Source: Candidatus Saccharimonadota bacterium (GTDB lineage: Bacteria > Patescibacteriota > Saccharimonadia > Saccharimonadales > UBA4665). Taken from it: a stretch of DNA of 42,946 nucleotides. The DNA lies in NCBI GenBank assembly GCA_014377695.1, contig JACMPA010000024.1, forward strand, positions 1 through 42,946, read 5' to 3'. Made by a program: the position numbers and the translations under genes. Positions 17,837 to 28,992 of the stretch are shown here, piece by piece (the first letter of the stretch is position 1; every line of letters begins with the position of its first letter). The notes under the pieces were generated by a model. It made no database searches and had not been told where the DNA came from. It saw only the letters and a list, made by a program, of their open reading frames with translations.

Positions 17837-18226
17837 TTAGGACCATATTCGAAGTAGGTAAAACCGTTTACGTCTTGTGACGTTTGAATTATTTGCTGCG
17901 TCAGCGATAGCGGTTGGCAGTACGTCGGTCGGTTGAATAGCTAATAATCGTTGCTGCTGCATTGCTGCCTGACGGTGTAACACTTGTGATCGTTGCAGTC
18001 TCTGGCCTGGGACTACCGGCGCAGTATTCTCATTGAACACCGACTGACTGGCCGCTATCACATCTTGAATGAGTCGCCCTGGAGCCGGAGTTATGGGCTG
18101 TTGGGTATGTATATGGTGGCTGGCTATAACATCATGAATCGGCTGCCCGATGCGGACATGCAGACCTGACGCGTGCTGTGGTAATCGTTGATGATTTTGA
18201 CTCATCTGCTTAATAACCCCACTCAT
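17837..18226 (-). CDS. Hypothetical Gln/Pro-rich protein, coupled to sortase (possible frameshift near C-terminus)
   Basis: ATGA overlap with sortase stop; alternative frame 17809-17937 reads as protein-like. Confidence 0.5.
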   Translation of the reverse strand: MSGVIKQMSQNHQRLPQHASGLHVRIGQPIHDVIASHHIHTQQPITPAPGRLIQDVIAASQSVFNENTAPVVPGQRLQRSQVLHRQAAMQQQRLLAIQPTDVLPTAIADAANNSNVTRRKRFYLLRIWS

Positions 18227-19407
18227 ATAGATTGTTCCTCTAATTTGGCAAAGACACCGATGCGTTGGCTGAATTCCCCTTTTTTGGAATCATATTTGCC
18301 GCCACAGGTTATTAAGTTCAGCCCAGACTTAGTTGCATCAATTGGACGAGATAGTGCGTTCATATCTACTGCATCAACTGGATATGTAACACTTTTGACC
18401 ACTGTATATTCTAATTTCTTACCATCACCTCGTTCGATTTCGATAGAATCACCAGCTACTAGATTCTTTATTCCGTAGAATACCCCGTTTGTGGTCCAAC
18501 TCGAGACGTGGCCATCAATCAACGTTGCTCCAGGCTCGCCTGGCTTAGCACTGGAACTATAGCGAGCTGTGTCAAAAACATTCGTTGGCGTGGCAAGTGC
18601 TCCATCCTTAGTAATACCTACCTGTAACACTCGTGCTAAAACGCCTAGCTTAGAAATACGAATATAGCGCGCCGCGTCTGGAGCAACCTGATACGATCGT
18701 AGAGTCTCAGCGGTAACTGGGGCAGTACTGGGCGCATTATCGACGACCGCACCTTCAACTGAATCAGTCGTTGTAGCCGGCGCAGCTTGTGCGATGCTAG
18801 CCCGAGCAGCTTGCGCCTGCGCCAGGCCATTGCTCTGGAAACCCTTACACGTTATGCCTAGCCCAATCACCAGCACTACCGCCGCCATACCCGTCAGCAG
18901 CTGCTGCTGCAACGGCATAGCTTTGACTGCCCGAAGCACACGCCTCGTGAATGCGCGCGGTTTTAGTTTGAATAATCTAACTCCCGGGCGAGGGGGCTTT
19001 GCCGGTGGTGCGAATGTACGGTGTATTTCGACCCTTTCCGGCACCGGAACATCCGACCACGCTATTTCTGACTCGGGCCGGGTTGTTTGTACAGTGACGG
19101 GTTGGCGCATTGAAACCTCCGAAGGTTCTGGCTTTTGCAGATCAGCTGGAGCCGGCCCAGGATTGCCAGGCATCTGCGTATGCGCTTCGACCAAATTATT
19201 CGGCATCGCTCCTGGTGCGGGTAGTTGCGTCGGTGCATTAAGTGCAGCTGGGAACTGAAACCCTGGAACCTGTGAGACGTCTTGAAATAATTTACGAGAA
19301 TGCCCAGCAGTTGGCCGTGGAACATACATAGCAGATTCAACAGCATGACTAAGCGGGCGCAGTTGCGCCCGCGGCGTAAAGTCATTGATCAATTGCTGTC
19401 CCGGCAT
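18223..19407 (-). CDS. Sortase with long proline-rich cytoplasmic N-terminus (class F-like)
   Basis: TM segment, then sortase domain: TLIDGHVSSW (His), LNLITCGG (Cys), FSQRIGVFA (Arg). Confidence 0.85.
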   Translation of the reverse strand: MPGQQLINDFTPRAQLRPLSHAVESAMYVPRPTAGHSRKLFQDVSQVPGFQFPAALNAPTQLPAPGAMPNNLVEAHTQMPGNPGPAPADLQKPEPSEVSMRQPVTVQTTRPESEIAWSDVPVPERVEIHRTFAPPAKPPRPGVRLFKLKPRAFTRRVLRAVKAMPLQQQLLTGMAAVVLVIGLGITCKGFQSNGLAQAQAARASIAQAAPATTTDSVEGAVVDNAPSTAPVTAETLRSYQVAPDAARYIRISKLGVLARVLQVGITKDGALATPTNVFDTARYSSSAKPGEPGATLIDGHVSSWTTNGVFYGIKNLVAGDSIEIERGDGKKLEYTVVKSVTYPVDAVDMNALSRPIDATKSGLNLITCGGKYDSKKGEFSQRIGVFAKLEEQSI

Positions 19408-25252: not shown

Positions 25253-26296
25253 TTATACCTTGGCGGTTTCAGCTGCGGCAGCATCCGTTACCTTGGCGGC
25301 AATTTCTTCCATGACTTCTGGGTTGTCCTGGAGGTATTGCTTCGCAGCCTCACGTCCCTGCCCGATTTTGGCGTCGTTGTAGGCAAACCAGGCGCCAGAT
25401 TTTTCCACGATGTCGCGGGCGGTTGCTAAGTCCAGAATGTCACCGGTACGACTGATGCCTTGGTTGTACATGATGTCGAACTCCGCTTCGCGGAACGGCG
25501 GTGCGATCTTGTTCTTGACTACCTTGACCCGAGTTCTGTTGCCGATAATGGCATCCCCCTGTTTGATCTGACCAATGCGGCGGATGTCGCAGCGGACTGA
25601 GGCGTAGAACTTGAGCGCGTTACCGCCGGTAGTCGTTTCTGGGTTGCCGAACATGACACCGATCTTCATACGCAGCTGGTTAATGAATATAACAGTCGCT
25701 TTACTACGCGAGATGACTGCGGTGAGCTTCCGAAGCGCTTGGCTCATCAAACGAGCTTGTAGGCCCATCTGTGCATCACCCATGTCGCCTTCAATCTCGG
25801 CGCGTGGTACTAATGCAGCCACGGAGTCGACGACGATTATGTCGACGGCGTTAGAACGAACCAGTGTTTCGACTATCTCGAGTGCTTGCTCGCCGTTGTC
25901 AGGCTGGCTAAGCAGCAAGTTCTCGACGTCCACACCGATGCGCTTGGCGTAGCCTGGGTCGAGAGCGTGCTCAGCATCGATAAATGCAGCCGTCCCCCCT
26001 GCTTTTTGACATTGAGCGATTGCATGGAGCGTAAGTGTGGTCTTACCAGATGATTCTGGTCCATAAATCTCGATAACGCGCCCCTTTGGAATGCCGCCGC
26101 CGAGAGCGAGGTCAAGTGAGATCGAGCCAGTAGGAATGCATTCAACCTTGGTTGCATAGGCTGAACCCATCTTCATGATGGATCCTTTGCCAAATTGTTT
26201 TTCGATTGTTTCTAGGGCTAGGCCGAGAGCCTTGCTCTTGCCATCACTACCAGAGGTGTCTTGGATTGTCTTGTCCTCAGTATTCTTCTTTGCCAT
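25253..26296 (-). CDS. recA: Recombinase A
   Basis: [67 protein letters not shown]. Confidence 0.99.
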
Positions 26297-26409
26297 TCGT
26301 TTATCCTTTCGTAGTGCGTAGGGAGCTAAAACTCACCTGCAAATTAATGTTGTGCCCACAGGTATATCAAGCATTCAGCAAACAGCGCAACCAAATTTCC
26401 ACATTAATT

Positions 26410-26440
26410 ACATTTAGGGAGGACAGTCCTCCCTAAATGT
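26410..26440. repeat. 31-bp palindrome ACATTTAGGGAGGAC-A-GTCCTCCCTAAATGT (REP-like)
   Basis: Perfect 15-bp arms; core GGGAGGACAGTCCTC is repeated on the other side of the RAYT gene. Confidence 0.85.
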
Positions 26441-26453
26441 TTTCTACCGTATT

Positions 26454-27065
26454 TTAGTTCGCTAATTCTTGTTTCAAAATGTCCATTAACTTCTTTTGTT
26501 CTACATAGTCTTCCATAAAGATCAAGTATTGTTCTGGTGTTTTAAAAAGACTTATGATGCGTTTTGGTCGAATCCAGGCTACCTCATCGCGTTGCAAATA
26601 ATACGTCAAACTAGAGTACTCATATTCCCGCCACGCCTTAGGATTAAGGTGTATATAACGTGATATGTGTTCTAGGTATGCCGGGTCACTAATCATCGAA
26701 GCTTTATAGCGTGACTCAAATAAAGAGCCGGAGCGCCTATACTTTTTATTAAAATAATGACTGTAGCTCGTGAGCACACTTTGCATGAATTTCGACATCA
26801 TCCCTGGCTGATGCTGATATATCAACAAATGGAAATGATTTGGCATCAATACGTAGGCTAGCAGTTCGACCTTGTTGAAGAAATTGGGGTACGGTATGCC
26901 ATAGGGATCTTTTGCCTCTTGTGGTGACAAATACCGCTCGAATAAGTTTAGAAAAGTAATGTAATCTTGTTCATCAATGAAAACACGATGCTTACTATGC
27001 CCGCGAGCATAGACATGCTGATAGGTGTCGGCAACATCTTGCTTAGTGGCATTTTTCCGTGGCAT
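26454..27065 (-). mobile_element. REP-associated tyrosine transposase (RAYT; Y1_Tnp HUH family)
   Basis: YQHVYARGHSKHRVFIDEQDYITFLNLFERYL, LLAYVLMPNHFHLLIYQ (HUH), SLFESRYKA, ISRYIHLNPKA. Confidence 0.9.
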
Positions 27066-27080
27066 ATGGCTAAGTATACG

Positions 27081-27098
27081 TTGGGAGGACAGTCCTCA
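27081..27098. repeat. REP-like palindrome TGGGAGGAC-A-GTCCTCACA (degenerate arm)
   Basis: Shares GGGAGGACAGTCCTC with 26410-26440. Confidence 0.8.
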
Positions 27099-27189
27099 CA
27101 AATTTACAACAAAGATACTGCTTACGTTTTATGGCTGTGACTGCTAAAATGTGGCCAGGATGGGTGAAGTTTAAAACTCCGAAATAAAC

Positions 27190-28992
27190 ATGCGTATACC
27201 AGATTCGTTGGTGGAGAAATTGTTGAATGCAACCGGCAGGTTCACTGCCGAACAGTTAACAACGCTCCGCGAACAAGAACAACAAGAAAAGAAGCCGTTA
27301 CAAGATTTGGTTATCAGTAACAACCTGCTTACCGAGAAGGAGTTAACCAAGCTGTACGCTGATGAGATCGAAGTGCCCTTCATCGAGCTCAATGCTAAAG
27401 AAGTTAAGCGTGAGATCCTTAAAGCTTTGCCAGAACGTATCGCCCGCCAATACCGCTCAGTAGTATTCGAGGCCGAGAAAGATGGTGAGATATCGATTGC
27501 AATGGAGGATCCGGATGACATCCAGGCCCTAAACTTTTTGCACAAACAGCTCGGGAACGAGCTCAAGATATTTATTGCCCCGGCCACGATGATCCAAGCA
27601 ACCCTGGATCAATACCGTGGCAACATCAGTAGTGAGCTTACAAAAGTTATATCCGATGAAGCGGCTGCCGATGTCGAAGAAGAAGTTGTCAGTGAAGACG
27701 AAGTCGCTGAAGACTCACCGATTGCCCAGACAGTGAATTTGATTATTGAATATGGTGTGAAGGCGAACGCAAGCGACATTCACATCGAACCGCGTGAAGG
27801 TTTCGTTATCGTACGTTACCGCATCGATGGCATGCTGCGCGAAGCCAACAAGCTCCCCCGTAAAGTATTAGGTGCCCTTGTTTCACGTATCAAAATCCTC
27901 AGTAATTTAAAGATTGACGAGCACCGCGCGCCGCAAGATGGTCGCTTTAAAGTAGAAGTCGGTGGACTAACCTACGCCCTTCGCGTCTCTACCCTGCCGA
28001 TTGTCGATGGTGAAAAGGTCGTTATGCGTATTTTGAACGAATCCACCAAGGCGGCGACCTTCGAGGACTTAGGATTCTGGGGTGATGCCCTAAAGAGCTT
28101 GAAGCACGCTATTGCTCAGCCGCACGGCATGGTGCTCGTGACTGGACCGACTGGTTCAGGCAAATCAACGACGCTATTTAGCGTCCTAACCATGCTCAAT
28201 ACGCCCAACGTAAATATTTCTACAGTGGAAGACCCGGTGGAGTATCGGGTGGTTGGCGCAAATCAGGTCCAAGTAAATCCAATCGCCGGCATGACTTTTA
28301 CGAACGGTTTACGCGCCCTACTGCGCCAAGACCCGAACATCATCATGGTTGGTGAGATCCGTGACGGCGAAACTGCTGACTTGGCCGTGCAGGCAGCACT
28401 CACAGGACACTTAGTGTTCAGTACCCTTCACACTAATAACGCCGCCACCTGTTTACCTCGTCTATTAAACATGGGCGTCGAGCCCTTCTTAATTGCATCA
28501 ACGGTCCGCGTCGTGCTCGGCCAGCGACTCGTCCGGCGACTCTGCTCGCACTGCCGCGAGGCATTCGAACCCGACGCAACGATGCTTACTCAAATTGATA
28601 AAATCTTCCACCTGCAAGAAACCGGCATTATGAAAAAGCTCCAAGTATATGAAAAAGAGGCTTTGGCCGACGGCATTGGCAAAGGCATGAAGTCGACCGC
28701 TGACGAGTTAAGTACCAGTGATCACGGTATTGGCCGCCTATTTAATGCGCATGAGGATGGTTGTGAGAATTGCAATCACACTGGCTACCGTGGCCGGATC
28801 GGTATTTACGAAGTACTCAACAACACTGAGACTATTCAGCATCAGATTGTTGGCAGCAGCACCAGTGATTCCATCGAAAACTTAGCTATCAAAGAAGGCA
28901 TGGTAACGATGCAGGTTGATGGGTTAGTCAAAGCCCTCCGCGGCGAGACTACCATCGGCGAAGTACTTAGGGTAACGGCACAGGAAGCATGA
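27190..28992 (+). CDS. pilB: Type IV pilus assembly ATPase PilB
   Basis: N-terminal MshE-type domain; GPTGSGKSTTLFSVL, RQDPNIIMVGEIRDGETADLAVQAALTGHLVFSTLHTN; CSHC...CENC zinc motif. Confidence 0.97.
   Translation: MRIPDSLVEKLLNATGRFTAEQLTTLREQEQQEKKPLQDLVISNNLLTEKELTKLYADEIEVPFIELNAKEVKREILKALPERIARQYRSVVFEAEKDGEISIAMEDPDDIQALNFLHKQLGNELKIFIAPATMIQATLDQYRGNISSELTKVISDEAAADVEEEVVSEDEVAEDSPIAQTVNLIIEYGVKANASDIHIEPREGFVIVRYRIDGMLREANKLPRKVLGALVSRIKILSNLKIDEHRAPQDGRFKVEVGGLTYALRVSTLPIVDGEKVVMRILNESTKAATFEDLGFWGDALKSLKHAIAQPHGMVLVTGPTGSGKSTTLFSVLTMLNTPNVNISTVEDPVEYRVVGANQVQVNPIAGMTFTNGLRALLRQDPNIIMVGEIRDGETADLAVQAALTGHLVFSTLHTNNAATCLPRLLNMGVEPFLIASTVRVVLGQRLVRRLCSHCREAFEPDATMLTQIDKIFHLQETGIMKKLQVYEKEALADGIGKGMKSTADELSTSDHGIGRLFNAHEDGCENCNHTGYRGRIGIYEVLNNTETIQHQIVGSSTSDSIENLAIKEGMVTMQVDGLVKALRGETTIGEVLRVTAQEA

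Follow-up and report, generated by a model that had tools for sequence, protein, structure and literature searches.

Between recA and a pilB-like gene of a Candidatus Saccharimonadota bacterium lies one RAYT-type transposase gene with a similar palindrome on each side. Is this a REPtron, that is, a RAYT gene with its cognate REP palindromes, is it a mobile element bounded by its ends, or is it a gene that no longer moves anything? Most work on REPtrons concerns Proteobacteria and Cyanobacteria, and in the open-access literature that was searched we found no description of a RAYT from Saccharibacteria or the candidate phyla radiation. The window, meaning the whole stretch of 42,946 nucleotides that was analysed, is contig C10 of a genome of 819,554 bases (89% complete), and was compared with a set of relatives containing one genome per species. 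Genome sizes in the family are about 0.4–1.5 Mb. Our results make it very probable that the locus is a single-copy REPtron, whose palindromes were moved or copied in the past, mostly as REPINs.

The transposase and its two flanking palindromes

According to an initial annotation, REP-like palindromes flank a RAYT gene that sits between recA and a pilus operon. The gene and the palindromes lie at the coordinates given there, the neighbours are as described (Table 1), and matched palindromes also occur on both flanks in relatives. The gene is the only one in the whole genome with a Y1_Tnp domain (41.8 bits, cut-off 23), and there are no near-identical copies of the kind left by insertion sequences. 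Its product scored 44.9 bits against the NCBIfam equivalog NF047646 (REP_Tyr_transpos), under the curated cut-off of 80, and had no match in PHROGs. The pilB-like product is likewise under the equivalog cut-off of the NCBIfam PilB model, with 547.7 bits. The neighbourhood of recA and pilB is kept in relatives both with and without the RAYT. Elsewhere in the window, positions 18226–19407 encode a protein resembling class F sortases (102 bits with NCBIfam, under cut-off).

Table 1. Features of the RAYT locus, in window coordinates
Feature	Position	Strand	Description
recA	25253-26296	minus	ORF; downstream neighbour of the RAYT, same direction
3' flanking REP	26410-26440		ACATTTAGGGAGGACAGTCCTCCCTAAATGT; perfect 31-nt palindrome with 15-bp arms
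Core of 3' flanking REP	26421-26429		GGACAGTCC
RAYT-like Y1 HUH transposase gene	26454-27065	minus	203 aa; NHFH and YIHLNP motifs; Pfam Y1_Tnp
Promoter-like site	27073-27101	minus	TTGTGA-17-TATACT from consensus scan; spacer holds the 5' REP core
5' flanking REP	27083-27097		GGGAGGACAGTCCTC; core identical to the 3' copy
Perfect palindrome within 5' flanking REP	27085-27097		13 bp
pilB-like ATPase gene	27190-28992	plus	ORF; divergent neighbour of the RAYT

The motifs of the RAYT (NHFH, LFES and YIHLNP) correspond to the NH[YF]H, F[EQ] and Y[IV]HLNP set listed for TnpAY1 subclass 2.1 (Table 1 of PMC6006769), a resemblance of catalytic motifs that comes from motif comparison only. The combination of HuH and Y---NP motifs, a low copy number, and flanks belonging to a palindrome family dispersed in the genome is that of TnpAY1 class 2. 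A phmmer search against the PDB gave no match, but a fold search did. The AlphaFold2 model built from four sequences (pLDDT 75, pTM 0.75; other models were lower) was closest to 4ER8 (TM 0.50/0.60, rmsd 2.9), a structure of the E. coli RAYT in complex with a REP hairpin, followed by IS200/IS605 transposases.

The 15-mer GGGAGGACAGTCCTC is present on both sides of the gene. As single-stranded DNA, the 3' palindrome folds with −13.6 kcal/mol (z = −8.3), and none of 200 shuffles was equally stable, while the whole degenerate 5' site folds weakly (z = −1.4). Neither the flanking palindromes nor the dispersed ones carry GTAG or GTGG at their foot, where the outer residues here are GGGA, and the exact GGGGWSAS motif is absent from the RAYT flanks, which read GGGAGGACAGTCCTC. 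The 3' palindrome was ruled out as a terminator because it lacks a T run, and an intrinsic terminator sought at the RAYT was not found. The 5' REP likely falls inside the RAYT promoter. The placement of the promoter-like site, suggestive only, would predict a nearly leaderless RAYT mRNA; sites from the consensus scan were no more numerous than in shuffles.

Flanking palindromes among relatives

The RAYT is found in 14 of the 93 genomes of the family, in 13 of these at the recA-pilB address, and it is absent from most others; two of the genes (in G017 and G022) are cut by a contig end. Other material occupies the same place in some relatives, where recA-pilB gaps of 776–1201 bp have no RAYT match (L091, L092, L102, L103, L110). 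At E ≤ 1e-20, homologues were present in 71 of 393 genomes sampled from the class, distributed over 44 of 153 genera, and a search among GTDB-species relatives returned distant proteins only, 27–35% identical. Some genomes encode several paralogues, for example seven in G017 and three in G024, which are divergent, have their own palindromes each, and are not recent duplicates.

The association between gene and palindrome was analysed at 40 RAYT loci for which both flanks were available; they come from relatives spread over one GTDB class. At 35 of these loci the 5' and 3' flanks have at least 12 nt in common, compared with 4.4% of cross pairs, and the longest common word has a mean of 18.1 nt (8.3 nt for cross pairs). 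None of 5000 permutations of the flanks reached the observed sum (p < 1/5000). Furthermore, a GG-N5-CC core is identical on both flanks in 31 of the 40 loci, allowing for the reverse complement, although the cores themselves are many and distinct. The centre of the 5' core lies at a median of 41 nt upstream of the RAYT start codon and the 3' core at a median of 28 nt past the stop. Since the gene in relatives is accompanied by a matching palindrome particular to them, enzyme and repeat have evolved together. This comparative flank evidence is decisive for a RAYT-palindrome system.

The earlier reading, in which GGAG beside a GGAC/GTCC hairpin serves as the REP tag, is not borne out by the same comparison. 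Outside the core, the residues differ between lineages (TTTATAGG, CTATAGG, TTTTCAGAGG, CTAAGGG) but stay self-complementary, and GG-N5-CC alone is constant. In the 3' palindrome of 11 complete orthologues, positions 5–10 from the centre are paired in 10–11 of the 11, with two to three pair types at each position. This covariation of the arms was not taken by itself as selection on structure, because template switching could also keep palindromes perfect.

Of the 40 relatives, 39 retain intact active-site motifs. The exception is the RAYT of G027 (L034, G027:C53:12842-13450), a full-length ORF that has lost both the HUH and the Y---NP motifs (PSYAH; YIHVVP). Its 5' palindrome is also unrecognisable, and the locus looks like a naturally decayed REPtron.

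Dispersed copies, empty sites and matching types

By itself, the 9-bp core shows no enrichment in the window (seven matches with one mismatch, 9.5 expected), and because it is no rarer than chance, the argument was built on the longer word together with its copies. The 13-mer GAGGACAGTCCTC occurs seven times in the genome and never in the reversed control, while GGGAGGACAGTCCTC with up to three mismatches occurs 34 times, compared with six in the control (palindromes counted on both strands). The genome-wide count proposed in the initial annotation, for which a lack of further copies would have spoken against a REP system, thus yielded five dimers besides single copies. The dimers are inverted pairs of 41–42 bp on contigs C15, C32, C5, C11 and C28 (alignment GGGAGGACAGTCCTCTAGCTATnGCAGGAGGACTGTCCTCCC). 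As two inverted REPs with a short spacer, intergenic and repeated, they are REPINs by definition. They fold as long hairpins (z = −6.4 and −7.4 for two of them). A covariance model recovered the same five as full dimers (E 1e-14 to 6e-12) and, weakly, the single copies at 26417–26433 and on contig C34; having been built from those five REPINs, it serves as a completeness check and not as independent proof.

All five REPINs are intergenic and close to the stop codons of ordinary genes, which is the usual position of REPs (PMC3733652). They lie at the junctions of a glycosyltransferase with an R3H-KhpB-like gene, a DnaQ-like exonuclease with a class-II tRNA synthetase, an unnamed gene with a PDDEXK gene, ileS with rplU, and hisS with an unnamed gene. 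The single copy on C34 is located within mnmA, in frame. With a total of five dimers and about five singles, the copy number is low, so that the amplification must be either weak or old. Single palindromes of the "double-foot" kind could derive from a dimer by central deletion, as has been proposed for subclass 2.4 (PMC6006769).

Empty sites, which the initial annotation had suggested to look for, are present in relatives at two REPIN junctions and at mnmA, the remaining junctions being uninformative. The stop codons of the glycosyltransferase and khpB-like genes are separated by 50 bp here, the REPIN making up 42 bp of this, and almost abut in G078 and G015. From hisS to the next gene there are 78 bp here, compared with 0–6 bp or an overlap in G008, G024, G066 and G078. 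In mnmA, about eight extra in-frame residues are found at the REP relative to G012, the only genus-mate in the set. G012 has neither the RAYT nor AGGACAGTCCT, and its recA-pilB gap measures 285 bp, compared with 894 bp here. The empty sites support past insertion of the palindromes, or else their loss in relatives, with the RAYT as the presumed agent. At the ileS-rplU junction, a REPIN site here, G012 has two small ORFs that look toxin-antitoxin-like by eye (L175, G012:C3:28880-29700).

Within the family, the word AGGACAGTCCT has 63 copies in the 14 genomes with a RAYT and 15 in the 79 without, compared with six for the reversed controls in all 93. Per genome, there are 22 copies in G016, 13 in G017, 11 in G022, nine in G000 and four in G019. 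One exception is G084, where no RAYT was detected and which holds five of the 15 copies; this genome also has a REPIN-like element bearing other arms (L051, L220-L222). The core GGACAGTCC defines type 1 and the core GGACGGACC type 2. The type-2 word TAGGWCSGWCCTA is found in seven genomes; in six of them a RAYT has the type-2 core on its flanks, and in G021, G027 and G028 its sole copy is the RAYT flank itself.

The match can extend to the arms. Scattered copies with the outer arms of the genome's own RAYT flanks, namely TTTTCAGAGGACAGTCCTCTGAAAA in G017, TTTTGGGAGGACAGTCCTCCCAAAA in G016 and TTAATAGGACGGACCTATTAA in G015, are the clearest extended matches. G016 has two palindrome sub-families, TTTTGGGAGGACAGTCCTCCCAAAA and GTGAAAGGACAGTCCTCGCAC (L203-L219), of which only the former matches its RAYT flanks. 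In addition, L206 of G016 and L238 of G017 are REPs apparently at corresponding places with arms of each genome's own type, suggesting a concerted change of REPs within genomes.

The recA-pilB address holds two main allelic RAYT lineages, each with its own REP core. The type-1 RAYTs form one clade (support 97/96), while in a tree of the PilB N-terminal region their hosts are split between two strongly supported groups. Judged from these trees, REP type tracks the RAYT tree and not the PilB tree. Forcing the host group G000, G011 and G015 together in the RAYT tree was rejected by the AU test (p = 0.0035, a value that is somewhat optimistic because the group was named after both trees had been seen). 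The conflict points to an exchange of gene and palindrome together, or to an ancient duplication with differential loss, either of which would fit.

Competing explanations and known systems

By analogy with the E. coli TnpAREP, which binds folded single-stranded REPs, cleaves at their foot and needs GTAG as well as the stem (PMC8266576), we propose that the RAYT would recognise the single-stranded hairpin of a palindrome with a GG-N5-CC core, here without GTAG, and that its catalytic tyrosine would nick near the hairpin foot. Recognition, choice of strand, cleavage and mobilisation would then all be functions of the RAYT. The palindromes would have been moved or copied mostly as REPINs of the observed length, mainly to sites just downstream of stop codons, and the RAYT may regulate its own expression via the promoter palindrome.

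The palindromes could instead be the ends of a self-mobile IS200/TIR-type element in which the transposase gene itself is moved, with the dispersed palindromes as remnants of excised or deleted copies. Di Nocera et al. described such self-mobile elements with palindromes as their ends under the name "TIRtrons" (PMC3733652), and the palindromes on both sides of the gene in most relatives would fit, as would genomes with several paralogues that each have their own ends. However, this genome has a single copy, within-genome paralogues are too divergent for recent duplicates, and 13 genomes keep the gene at one address. Moreover, most of the dispersed copies are exact inverted dimers or single palindromes with matched arms, and not gene fragments, all of which makes a self-mobile element quite improbable. 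An origin of the palindromes in replication errors, by quasi-palindrome correction or template switching, with the RAYT nearby only incidentally, is far less credible still. Because template switching is enough to maintain perfect inverted repeats, arm covariation is no proof of selection by itself, yet such an origin leaves unexplained why copies match at both ends of the gene, a pattern for which the flank permutation test strongly disfavours this origin, and why the same core and arms are found genome-wide only in genomes with a matching RAYT.

A domesticated RAYT that moves nothing, its palindromes kept as regulatory hairpins for RAYT autoregulation and for the transcript ends of neighbours, is more plausible than either, but in our view unlikely. 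The lineage-specific insertions at three sites indicate past movement, and the lack of an intrinsic terminator at the RAYT also argues against it; on the other hand, in many relatives the promoter and the 5' palindrome overlap, REPINs stand just after stop codons, the arms covary, and the RAYT has long been retained at one locus. Domestication is, in any case, compatible with a REPtron and does not exclude it. Beyond this locus, one could imagine a class-wide RAYT lineage of reduced-genome bacteria, in which tag-less symmetric GG-N5-CC hairpins and the enzyme form a specificity cassette, two core lineages were exchanged between genera at recA-pilB, and the 5' palindrome provides dose feedback at the promoter; we put this forward tentatively, as an idea that may well not hold in full.

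That this is a real REPtron/REPIN system with a tag-less palindrome, a variant of known REPtrons, is well supported. It shares with the RAYT/TnpAREP REPtrons of E. coli, Pseudomonas and Stenotrophomonas (PMC3116915, PMC8266576, PMC6006769) a class-2 Y---NP HUH transposase of low copy number flanked by palindromes, the dispersal of these palindromes between genes as inverted pairs, a palindrome specific to each RAYT, and the fold nearest to 4ER8. It differs from them in its symmetric GG-N5-CC palindrome, whereas known REPs carry GTAG (PMC8266576, PMC6006769), in the F[EQ] that usually replaces the W motif, and in its very few copies and small genome. The TIRtrons (PMC3733652), whose TIRYT transposases correspond to subclass 2.1 (PMC6006769), have the same catalytic motifs, and in some of them the TIRs are self-complementary and make up dispersed families arranged as dimers. 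Unlike these, the protein here has 203 aa (median 238 there) and no C-terminal HTH-like domain, the Pfam search having found Y1_Tnp alone, and the flanks contain no exact GGGGWSAS motif. The class-1 TnpA of IS200/IS605 has the Y1 HUH fold and a hairpin-flanked gene as well, but carries Y---Q in place of Y---NP, and the single copy here is unlike such elements.

The REPtron described here resides in a 0.8-Mb genome, although REP-type tnpA genes are reported to favour large genomes (PMC6006769). For subclass 2.1, which equals group 1 of Bertels, no neighbouring REPs were found (PMC6006769, Table 1), and because the motif set seen here was earlier filed as this subclass without REPs, the subclass boundary may need revision. 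With so many RAYTs naturally paired with a GG-N5-CC core, a ready series exists for studying how hairpins are recognised and whether a tag is needed.
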